This document shows, piece after piece, positions 7,214 to 13,704 of a stretch of DNA of 64,000 nt. The stretch's first letter is position 1; every line of letters begins with the position of its first letter. The position numbers and the translations under genes are program-made. Source of the DNA: Thermoflexus hugenholtzii JAD2 (GTDB lineage: Bacteria > Chloroflexota > Dehalococcoidia > UBA2979); the NCBI GenBank assembly GCA_945903275.1, contig CAMDNW010000002.1:1-64000 (forward strand), given 5' to 3'. Under the pieces are notes generated by a model that was not told the origin of the DNA, searched no databases, and worked only from the letters and a program-made list of their open reading frames with translations.

Positions 7214-8869
7214 TCAGATCGTGAGCACTTCCTGATACTCGCCCCATTCTTCGCGAAGGATGCCACAGATTTCGCCAATCGTGGCGTACGCCTCTACTGC
7301 CGCGATGAGCAGCGGCACCATGTTATCCGTGCCGCGAGCGGCGGCACGAATGTCTACGAGACATCGCTTCACCATCGCGTTGTCGCGACGCGCACGGAGC
7401 GCTTGCAGACGCGCGACCTGACGTCGGCCGATTGCAGGGTCGACCCGCATGATGTCCGGTACTTCAAGCGCTTCCGTCTGGAACTGGTTCACACCGACGA
7501 CGGTGCGCTCTTTGGTCTCCATCATGTGCTGGAGCCGGTAGGCAGATTCCTGAATCTCTCGCTGCTGGAAGCCCTGCTCGATACAGACCAGTGCGCCGCC
7601 CATATCCTCGATACGTTTGATGTAGGCGTCGGCCTCAGCCTCAACGCGATCCGTTAGGTGCTCGATGTAATATGAACCCGCGAGGGGGTCGATCACATCG
7701 GCAGCTCCGGTCTCGTATCCGATGATCTGCTGTGTACGCAGCGCGAGTTCCACGGAGCCCTCGGTGGGCAGCGCGAGCGCCTCGTCCCAAGAGTTGGTAT
7801 GAAGTGATTGTGTGCCGCCGAGTACGGCCGACATGGCCTGGAAAGCCGTGCGCAGCAAGTTGTTCATCGGCTGCTGTGCGGTGAGCGTTGCACCGCCGGT
7901 CTGCGTGTGGAAGCGGAGTGACTGCGACCTAGAGTTGTCGGAGCCGTAGCGCTCCTTAACGATACGTGCCCACATTCGCCTTGAGGCCCGAAACTTTGCA
8001 ACCTCCTCGAGGAAGTTCGAGTGGCAGGCCCAGAAGAACGATAGCCGTGGTGCGATTTCGTCGATCGTGAGCCCCGTCGCGATGGCTGCATCGCAGTACT
8101 CGATGGCGTCGGCAAAGGTGAATGCAAGTTCTTGGGCGGCGGTACAGCCTGCCTCGCGCATGTGGTAGCCAGAGATGGAGATCGTGTTCCATTCCGGCAG
8201 GTTGTCTTTACACCACGCAAATACATCGGTAATCAGCCGGAGCGACGGGCGTGGCGGGAAGATATACGTGCCGCGGGCGATGTACTCCTTGAGGACATCG
8301 TGCTGGATGGTGCCGCCAACTTTCGCGAGATCTGCACCCTGCTTCTTGGCCGCCGCGACATACATCGCGAGCAGGATTGAGCCAGTTGCGTTGATCGTCA
8401 TCGATGTGGTGACTTTGTCGAGCGGCAGCCCTCCGGTTAGTGTCTCCATGTCCTCCAACGAGGCGATGGCGACGCCAACTTTGCCGACTTCGCCTTCGGC
8501 GTGGGGGTCGTCCGAGTCGTAGCCGATCTGGGTCGGTAGATCGAATGCAACAGAGAGGCCGGTTTGTCCCTGTTCGAGGAGGAACTTGTAACGGCGGTTC
8601 GACTCCTCAGCGTCACCGAAGCCAGCGTATTGGCGCATCGTCCAGAGCCGACCGCGGTACATCGTCGGCTGCACGCCGCGCGTGAATGGGTATTCGCCCG
8701 GGAACCCGAGCTTCTCGTGGTAGTTCCACTCAGCGAGGGCTTCGGGGCCATACATCGGGTCGACTTCGGTACCTGATGACGACTCGAATCGCGGCTGCCT
8801 CTCCTTGAAGCGGTCGACGGCCTGCTTGTACGGGCCTTCTTGCCATTCGTGGGTACTGTGGCTGGGCAC
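7214..8869 (-). CDS. mcmA1: Methylmalonyl-CoA mutase large (catalytic) subunit
   Basis: 551 aa TIM-barrel subunit without its own B12 domain, matching the two-subunit mutases of archaea and many deep-branching bacteria. Specificity residues fit methylmalonyl-CoA: [10 protein letters not shown] keeps the Tyr equivalent to Tyr89 of the Propionibacterium enzyme, and [13 protein letters not shown] keeps the Arg equivalent to Arg207. Isobutyryl-CoA mutases have Phe and Gln there. First gene of the operon mcmA1 / epimerase-VOC / mcmA2 / meaB, supplying a route between propionyl-CoA and the TCA cycle. No cobalamin riboswitch is recognisable in the short 5' region before the tRNA-Val gene. Confidence 0.95.
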
Positions 8870-11287: not shown

Positions 11288-12025
11288 TCACCAACGCGCG
11301 TGGCGTGGGCTTGCCGCGACTTGGCGTACGCGGGCGAGCAACGGAGCGCGGAACACAACCGCTACTACTACACCAACGACGAAACCTGTGACGTGGGCCT
11401 CCCATGCGACACCGGCGTCACCAATGGCGAACTGCCCGAGGAACCATAGCCCTAGAAAGAGTACTGCCGGCACCGGTATCACCATGAAAAACGCCAACGA
11501 CATGACCATCTTTCCGGGGAAAAGCACAAGGTACGACCCGAGCACGCCGGCAATCGCACCGGACGCACCGATCAGTGGTGTGGTGTTGTCCGGATGCAGC
11601 ACCACGAATCCGAATGTGGCGACCAGCCCCGCCACCAAGTAGGCGGCTAAGTACCGGAGGTGACCGTAGGCTTCTTCGACGTTGTTACCGAACAGCCACA
11701 AGAACCACATATTCCCGAGCAGATGTGCGAGGCCTCCGTGCAGGAACATCGACACGAATAGCGAGGCGAGAGGAATCTTCTCCGGAAAGGCTACGCCACT
11801 GGATGCCGCAGGATCACACATCTGGCCATTAATCTCGTCAAAGGTCAGTGGCCGCCCCATGAGCACTTCGCAAGCGATTGCCGAGCGTTCATACAGGAAT
11901 TCCACATCATCTTGCACGCTCCCGTGCGGCTGCCAGAGCAACCAGACGAGGACGTTGATGGCGATCAGTGCCAGCGTCATCACCGGGGTGATCCGCGTCG
12001 GGTTCAGGTCACGAATGGGAAACAC
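11288..12025 (-). CDS. Rhomboid family intramembrane serine protease
   Basis: 245 aa from a GTG at 12025, which gives the classic bacterial rhomboid N-terminus (FPIRDLNPTRITPV); a weak GGATGG site precedes it. There are six predicted membrane helices. Catalytic Ser lies in GASGAIAG in helix 4 and catalytic His in EAHVTGF in helix 6; the L1-loop/helix-2 region has HGGLAHLLGNMWFLWLFG. Rhomboids cleave transmembrane helices of other proteins. It is 32 bp upstream of the M42 peptidase, so the two may be co-transcribed. A longer frame upstream (to 12139) has no rhomboid character. Confidence 0.92.
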   Translation of the reverse strand: MFPIRDLNPTRITPVMTLALIAINVLVWLLWQPHGSVQDDVEFLYERSAIACEVLMGRPLTFDEINGQMCDPAASSGVAFPEKIPLASLFVSMFLHGGLAHLLGNMWFLWLFGNNVEEAYGHLRYLAAYLVAGLVATFGFVVLHPDNTTPLIGASGAIAGVLGSYLVLFPGKMVMSLAFFMVIPVPAVLFLGLWFLGQFAIGDAGVAWEAHVTGFVVGVVVAVVFRAPLLARVRQVAASPRHARW

Positions 12026-12195
12026 GCGCCATCCGTTCGTCCACGGGCATCCTGCCCAGATGGGTATCCTACTGCCTGCCCGAACAGTGAGGCTCACGAC
12101 TGCCTGTTCAGGTGATTCCGGCTCAAGCCTGATAGGCAATGCTCATCTCGCGGAGCACATCCGCAGCAGCAGAGAAGAGCAGCATAACCACATCT

Positions 12196-12604
12196 ATGGG
12201 CACCGCACGGCAATATTCCGATGATTTTGCCACTGCGGTCGCAGCGAGCCGCAGTCTGGACCGTCGCCGTCAATGTGCGTCGCTGGTTTCCGGCCAGCGG
12301 CATCCTCTGGTCATCGGACGGTCTGATCATCACTGCCAACCACGTCATTGAGCGCGAAGACGCAATTCACGTCACCTTATATGGCCGCGAACAGACCGAG
12401 GCTTGTCTGATCGGCCGTGACCTCGGCGCCGACCTCGCGCTATTGCAGTCGGAAAGAGCGACCGAAGGGCCGGAACTCGCACCGGCGAATGAGATACGAG
12501 TCGGACACGTCGTCATGGCACTCGGCGCAAGCGGCAGCGTGTAGGCCTCCATTGGCATCATGGGCACCCTTGGGGGGCCCTGGCGCAGCCAGAGCGGGAA
12601 GAAT
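12196..12604 (+). pseudogene. HtrA/Deg-like trypsin protease, N-terminal remnant
   Basis: Two frames together give the first third of a trypsin-fold HtrA-like protease. A start region (YSDDFATAVAASR, from ATG 12196) shifts frame near 12240 into WFPASGILWSSDGLIITANHVIERED, which carries the catalytic His (TANHV), and then LGADLALLQSE with the catalytic Asp region. A TAG at 12542 interrupts VMALGASGSV, after which homology resumes for about 17 codons (SIGIMGTLGGPW) and stops at about 12604. The Ser-containing half is missing. The 3' limit coincides with the start of an AT-rich foreign fragment. Confidence 0.75.
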
Positions 12605-13110
12605 TAAAGCAACTGAAGTTCGTGGCTCTAATTATGTCGATGCTGGAGAACAAAGCCGAGTCGGGTCTCGTGTTATGCCCAAAATTCTTATAGGAAAACC
12701 TGCACAGGTGCTTGGAGATATTGATGTAAAGCACACTTGAACGTATTTGTTAGATGTTGCTCGACTCATGCAAATTGTTGCAGTGAATTCAAAGGCTTGG
12801 GGTAAGGCGTGGCACGTTCCAAGTAATGAGGCAAAAACGCAGAGAGAACTGGTTGGCGAATTAGCCGCAGCTGCTGATGTAAAAACCCAAAGATCGCTTC
12901 AGTCCCAACCGTTATGTGGAATCTCTTTGCGCTATTGAATCCCTTGCTCAAAGCATTCAAGGAAACTGCCTATCAAATGCAACGTCCGTTCATTTTGGAT
13001 GACAGCGCAGCCCGTAAGGCTTTCGAGATGTAGCCAAAATGGAAGCAATCTTGCGAGAAGTGGTAAAGGAAACCCGTTTATATTGGGGATGGCACCTCCC
13101 TCGGCCACGG
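12605..13110 (+). pseudogene. AT-rich NAD-dependent epimerase/dehydratase remnant
   Basis: Concatenated frames encode the C-terminal half of an extended-SDR sugar-nucleotide epimerase: VRGSNYVDAGEQSRVGSRV, MPKILIGKPAQVLGDIDVKHT, TGA (where relatives have Trp), then TYLLDVARLMQIV, AWGKAWHVPSNEAKTQREL, a frameshift near 12885, and ETAYQMQRPFILDDSAARKAF, TAG, a second frameshift and ILREVVKETR. Base composition is distinctly AT-rich and uses A/T-ending codons (aaa, gtt, gaa), unlike every neighbour. This points to acquisition from a low-GC donor followed by decay. It has no N-terminal NAD-binding half. Confidence 0.8.
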
Positions 13111-13119
13111 ACAGCCTCG

Positions 13120-13704
13120 ATGAAACTGACGAACACTAGCCGGTACTCTGACCCCGAGGTCCGCCTCCTCGTCGCGTTCGGCATGCAGGATATTGACCAC
13201 AGTCGGCTGGCGGTTCACGTACGCAACTCGTCGCGTGCCTATCGAGGCCGCGCGTACGAAGGCATTCCGCATCTCTCAGCGCGAACCCATGACGAGGATG
13301 TCGATCGCCTCGTCACGATCGGCATCGGGGCGCCCAAACTGTTTCCCTGCACGAACCTCCAGACGAGTGTGCGCTGGGTGAAGGTCAAGCGTGACGAGGA
13401 TACTTCAGCAGCCGTACTGCGGCGGCGACGCGACCGCCTCGGACGGGTACAGACTGAGCGGCAGGTCGTAGAACAGCATGGCTATGGCGGCAAGCGTTCA
13501 CCCGTGCTCACGTTCCACAACTGGCGCGAGGCGCTAGTCTCTGTAGCCGCACACGAAGCACGTCACATCTGGCAGTATCAATACGATCAGCCTCGGAGTG
13601 AAGTCGACGCCGAGCAGCGTGCCGGAGAACGCATTGAGGCGTTCCGCCTGCTGCATACGCCGCGACGGCTTGAAGGTCTACAACTGCGTTTGAGCTTCGA
13701 CTAG
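13120..13704 (+). CDS. Putative zincin-like protein with HEARH motif
   Basis: 194 aa. Normal high-GC coding resumes at the ATG at 13120 (MKLTNTSRYSDPEV); the same frame runs upstream into the AT-rich remnant, which is probably accidental. The centre/C-terminus has AAHEARHIWQ (about residues 146-155) followed by SEVDAEQRAGERIEAFR, the HExxH-like plus downstream acidic arrangement of small putative zinc peptidases found in phages and bacteria. The HEARH pattern matches HExxH, so metal binding is plausible but unproved. The ribosome binding site is weak. It converges with the ABC transporter. Confidence 0.6.
   Translation: MKLTNTSRYSDPEVRLLVAFGMQDIDHSRLAVHVRNSSRAYRGRAYEGIPHLSARTHDEDVDRLVTIGIGAPKLFPCTNLQTSVRWVKVKRDEDTSAAVLRRRRDRLGRVQTERQVVEQHGYGGKRSPVLTFHNWREALVSVAAHEARHIWQYQYDQPRSEVDAEQRAGERIEAFRLLHTPRRLEGLQLRLSFD

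Follow-up and report, generated by a model that had tools for sequence, protein, structure and literature searches.

Comparison with described systems

Two described routes can serve as models for the capture of short foreign DNA by bacterial genomes. Double illegitimate recombination was reportedly observed during natural transformation of Acinetobacter baylyi in the laboratory by Hulter and Wackernagel in 2008, and homology-facilitated illegitimate recombination, which is said to need a truly homologous anchor at one end, was reportedly described by de Vries and Wackernagel in 2002. The locus described here resembles the first in that neither end of the foreign segment appears to have been joined through long homology, but the A. 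baylyi case is a laboratory observation, whereas the process here is read from sequence. It resembles the second in that the foreign DNA may have been integrated with a few shared bases at a junction, but the anchor of homology required there was not seen at this locus. A literature search for short-patch double illegitimate recombination, run as an exact phrase, returned no match.

Pseudogenes left by failed horizontal transfer form a large and recognized class in bacteria, and those considered by Liu et al. (2004, PMC522871) combine foreign composition and disablements with absence of the gene from relatives. The fragment analyzed here has a foreign composition, no counterpart in relatives, its kin in another lineage, and a disabled frame. 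It differs from the class as set out in that source in that half a gene only is present, the replacement of native sequence is mapped, and there is a likely donor clade.

Composition and identity of the fragment

The locus lies in a stretch of 64,000 nucleotides (here, the window), whose GC content is 63.2% overall versus 46.3% at positions 12605 to 13110. The GC minimum of the window falls here, and its lowest-GC 505-base interval starts at 12586. In a larger composition sample comprising the window together with 20 further stretches, each of 20 kb (464 kb, or 26% of the 1.75-Mb genome), intervals of 490 bases had a mean GC content of 65.4% (standard deviation, 3.5%); the minimum, 44.9%, was at 12595, and this was the sole stretch below 52%. 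The sequence-only reading had described a low-GC segment with A/T-ending codons in high-GC DNA, and both features were confirmed, with a GC content at third codon positions of 40%. As for low-GC homologues elsewhere, homologues were absent from the whole genome and other low-GC stretches were absent from the 26% sampled. GC contents at codon positions 1, 2, and 3 (0.57, 0.40, and 0.40) match those of the two nearest relatives (0.59, 0.43, and 0.40 and 0.57, 0.42, and 0.35) and show no shift towards host values.

The product of the fragment corresponds to the C-terminal half of a protein resembling NAD-dependent epimerases/dehydratases (PF01370, extended SDR). It matches PF01370 with an E value of 0.0035 and 17.2 bits, against a curated cut-off of 20.9, and its intact relatives match with E values of 2.6e-13 and 1.8e-13 (50.4 and 50.9 bits). 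The fragment begins downstream of the N-terminal Rossmann fold and the catalytic Tyr-x-x-x-Lys, both of which are absent. At what we take to be the expected place of this motif, the intact relatives read MWLDAK by eye, and the protein is therefore labeled an atypical SDR. The earlier description as a broken epimerase C-terminus was upheld, but the qualifier “sugar-nucleotide” was not, as the family match is to PF01370 only. The scrap has no start codon, no intact frame, and no promoter match, and a scan of positions 12500 to 13200 yielded neither promoters nor terminators. Neither the scrap nor the HtrA remnant beside it is able to make an intact protein.

Nearest relatives and likely donor

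A scan of 84,980 species genomes matched six loci, two of which were far above the rest. The first, L014, is in MAG BACL4 120820-bin23 (78% protein identity in the scan, 79% with corrected frames), and the second, L015, is in MAG UppL4_bin-187, labeled “uncultured actinobacterium” (76% and 78%, respectively). The remaining four, three from Amycolatopsis and one from an Acidimicrobiales MAG, were at 39 to 42%. A few residues near the C terminus were misjoined in the query used for the relatives, plasmids, species genomes, and family and genus of the L014 genome; a tree built with the corrected reading left the nearest kin unchanged. In a nine-row tree, the fragment groups with L014 and L015 with support of 91/89, which is below the starred level. 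At the DNA level, the fragment is 76% identical to L014 and 77% identical to L015, both of which are intact genes of low-GC actinobacteria (contig GC content, 45%). The two genomes probably belong to one family, and BACL4 is placed in clade acI in Table 1 of PMC4699468. A TetR-like gene lies upstream of the donor-type gene in both genomes, and the downstream neighbors differ.

Searches of 39 relatives of this genome (40 genomes searched, including its own) and of the rest of the genome itself gave no homologue of the fragment. The housekeeping protein TypA of this genome shares 63 to 68% identity with its counterparts in G072 and in the genomes of L014 and L015. Identity of 78 to 79% in a decaying fragment exceeds that of TypA and is thus out of line with descent. 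Together with the absence of homologues in relatives, the low-GC actinobacterial kinship supports the earlier proposal of a low-GC donor.

The donor-type gene is patchy among acI-type genomes, as indicated by three samples. In the family of the L014 genome (G060), five of 251 genomes matched at an E value of ≤0.001, and the only close matches were G060 itself and a partial one in G072; within its genus, G060 was the only match among 25 genomes. A DNA search of the genus of the L015 genome (G061) gave matches in four of 101 genomes, namely, G061 itself, G290 with a match of 222 bases, and two others in which the match was very short. None of these samples (251, 25, and 101 genomes) held a nearer donor than L014 or L015, and the true donor species is absent from the searched collections, in which the nearest DNA is 76 to 77% identical.

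Native neighbors and junctions

The features of the locus are given in Table 1. In the sister genome G001 (locus L008), a single contig carries, in order, genes for an M42 peptidase, a rhomboid-type protein, a complete HtrA, a LuxR-type regulator, and the metallopeptidase, the M42 and rhomboid names in sister and window being judged from sequence. Identities between window and sister are 77% for the M42 peptidase, 68% for the rhomboid-type protein, 44% for the first part of HtrA, and 65% for the metallopeptidase. The rest of HtrA and the LuxR-type gene have no match in the window, where the foreign scrap stands instead. The LuxR-type gene was seen at this place in one sister genome only. The genus has a third member, whose genome (67% complete) gave no match for this region, and the metallopeptidase occurs in two members of the family, G003 and G018, without these neighbors in the stretches examined.

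Table 1. Features of the locus and of the two donor-side loci
Feature	Positions	Strand	Basis
Native rhomboid-type gene; marks synteny	11288..12139	-	68% identity to sister; name judged from sequence
Native HtrA/Trypsin_2 protease remnant, first ~120 residues only	12221..12601	+	Profile match, sister alignment
acI-like NAD-dependent epimerase/dehydratase (atypical SDR), C-terminal half, low GC, broken	12594..13085	+	DNA alignment to L014/L015, GC profile; right edge within about 13077-13096
GCGGG, candidate microhomology, common to donor-like genes and possibly ancestral HtrA	12594..12598	+	Donor side by alignment; sister HtrA GAGCGGG
In-frame TGA, Trp in both intact relatives	12738..12740	+	Alignment to relatives
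Single-base deletion, frameshift	12883..12884	+	Alignment to relatives
In-frame TAG, Gln in both intact relatives	13031..13033	+	Alignment to relatives
3-base in-frame deletion (~13037), then single-base deletion (~13047, frameshift)	13037..13048	+	Alignment to relatives
Native putative metallopeptidase, weak DUF6782 match, open frame	13120..13704	+	65% identity to sister over 154 residues held
Donor-side loci, L014	92-742 and 1693-2121		
Donor-side loci, L015	394-1044 and 2421-2894		

The HtrA remnant matches positions 63 to 142 of the 434 in TIGR02037 (HtrA/Do protease) and lacks the catalytic Ser region and the PDZ domain, and the sister protein has both Trypsin_2 and PDZ domains. The remnant is interrupted by an in-frame TAG at 12542, and its N terminus appears to lie in another frame, probably owing to a frameshift at about 12240. 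Elsewhere in the genome, a nearly full-length HtrA-like match (L053, positions 7931 to 8827, on G000:C8) has 29% identity, and given this gene the dead htrA copy may be redundant. A 107-residue open reading frame (positions 12417 to 12740, plus strand) runs from an out-of-frame part of the HtrA remnant into the beginning of the scrap; it is a product of chance and likely to be annotated as hypothetical. A second, degenerate match to the metallopeptidase, elsewhere in this genome, is weak (L024, G000:C4:1556-1789, minus strand; 36% identity) and holds two in-frame TGA codons.

Homology to L014 and L015 begins abruptly at 12594 with 17 identical bases, and the preceding bases differ. On the right, homology fades at about 13077 to 13085, and composition recovers at about 13085 to 13096. 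The start of donor homology at 12594 corrects the 12605 of the sequence-only reading. The claim that the segment begins exactly where the HtrA remnant stops is roughly right but not exact, as the formal HtrA alignment ends at 12562 and can plausibly be extended ungapped to about 12601. At the corresponding residues the sister HtrA reads GAGCGGG, shifted by one base relative to the codons, which makes a shared GCGGG at the left crossover possible. Up to 5 bases are shared at this junction, and the right junction is placed only within about 20 bases.

Disablements and decay

The TGA, the TAG, and the two frameshifts noticed in the initial reading were all borne out by the alignments, which added a 3-base deletion at about 13037 to the count. 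The possibility that the TAG at 13031 is an out-of-frame artefact was ruled out by alignment to the intact relatives.

Substitutions were compared by codon position among the window, L014, and L015 at 162, 162, and 160 sites of positions 1, 2, and 3, with gapped columns set aside. Changes exclusive to the window numbered 19, 12, and 41 at the three positions, compared with 7, 1, and 29 exclusive to L014 and 4, 4, and 22 exclusive to L015; a further 13 third positions differed in all three. The ratio of changes at positions 1 and 2 to those at position 3 is 31:41 for the window versus 16:51 on the branches of the relatives (Fisher P = 0.02), a modest test, as the window branch also takes in some of the donor lineage and third positions may be close to saturated. 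The excess of first- and second-position changes (31/72 versus 16/67) suggests a mixed history, with some of the divergence accumulated free of constraint and some under constraint in the donor lineage. Decay is thus supported by disablements and relaxed constraint, but the word “rapid” in the sequence-only reading is not, as this excess gives no date.

Origin of the fragment

The locus is very probably the result of replacement: about 490 bp of acI-like DNA took the place of the 3′ part of htrA, and perhaps of the LuxR-type gene, probably via two illegitimate crossovers, and then decayed. The complete HtrA and LuxR-type genes of the sister at the place of the scrap indicate replacement of native DNA rather than the simple insertion first proposed, whose location at the remnant junction is supported by the sister gene order; the replacement is judged from one sister genome. 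Under the replacement model, a piece of about 490 bp carrying the C-terminal half of an atypical SDR gene would have been taken up from an acI-like actinobacterium, by transformation or another route, and would have been joined into the genome by two nonhomologous crossovers in a single event or in several steps. A short stretch of chance homology (GCGGG) may have guided the left crossover. The replacement would have removed the 3′ part of htrA, perhaps with the LuxR-type regulator gene, and the scrap and the truncated htrA would then have decayed as pseudogenes.

The main rival is an assembly chimera in which acI-like DNA from the same kind of sample was misjoined into the contig. The genome was assembled in 29 contigs, the onset of the insert is abrupt, and acI bacteria are described as common in freshwater (PMC4699468), such that their DNA could be in the sample. 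However, four disablements and an in-frame deletion are unexpected in a gene of a live donor, the adjoining native HtrA has decayed independently, both flanks are in sister order on one contig, and the branch of the fragment shows relaxed constraint (P = 0.02). That the scrap and its native neighbor have both decayed argues against misassembly, and a chimera is considered unlikely. A broader version of the preferred reading, in which sub-gene scraps from the very abundant acI actinobacteria regularly mutate other aquatic bacteria by illegitimate recombination and this one gave the metallopeptidase, whose frame continues upstream into the last codons of the scrap, a new 5′ region, is regarded as improbable.

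Larger islands can leave short foreign pieces behind, and the fragment might on that account be the remnant of a phage, plasmid, or transposon that carried the gene. Nevertheless, native sequence abuts both sides, no transposase or integrase was seen by eye among the surrounding open reading frames, 72,556 plasmid records held no close relative (best identity, 42%), 50,697 phage records gave one distant match (23%), and one scan of viral contigs gave none, making such an origin highly improbable. Vertical descent of a native gene, lost in relatives and low in GC by chance or selection, is the hardest to credit: nothing was found in its favor, and it conflicts with the lack of homologues in the 39 relatives, the uniqueness of the low-GC stretch in the 464-kb sample, and actinobacterial nearest kin at an identity above that of the conserved TypA.

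The metallopeptidase frame is open from an ATG at 13039 (window positions 13039 to 13704, plus strand), which falls within the final codons of the foreign scrap. Its start by homology is 13120, and automatic annotation may add a false N terminus.

Significance

The case is a clear and well-mapped but ordinary, textbook failed horizontal gene transfer. It cautions against taking every short low-GC stretch of a genome assembly for contamination. In addition, it provides a well-resolved example of how a random foreign scrap can replace native sequence and knock out genes in an uncultured bacterium, with an identifiable left junction, a likely donor clade, and a sister genome in which the probable earlier state is preserved.
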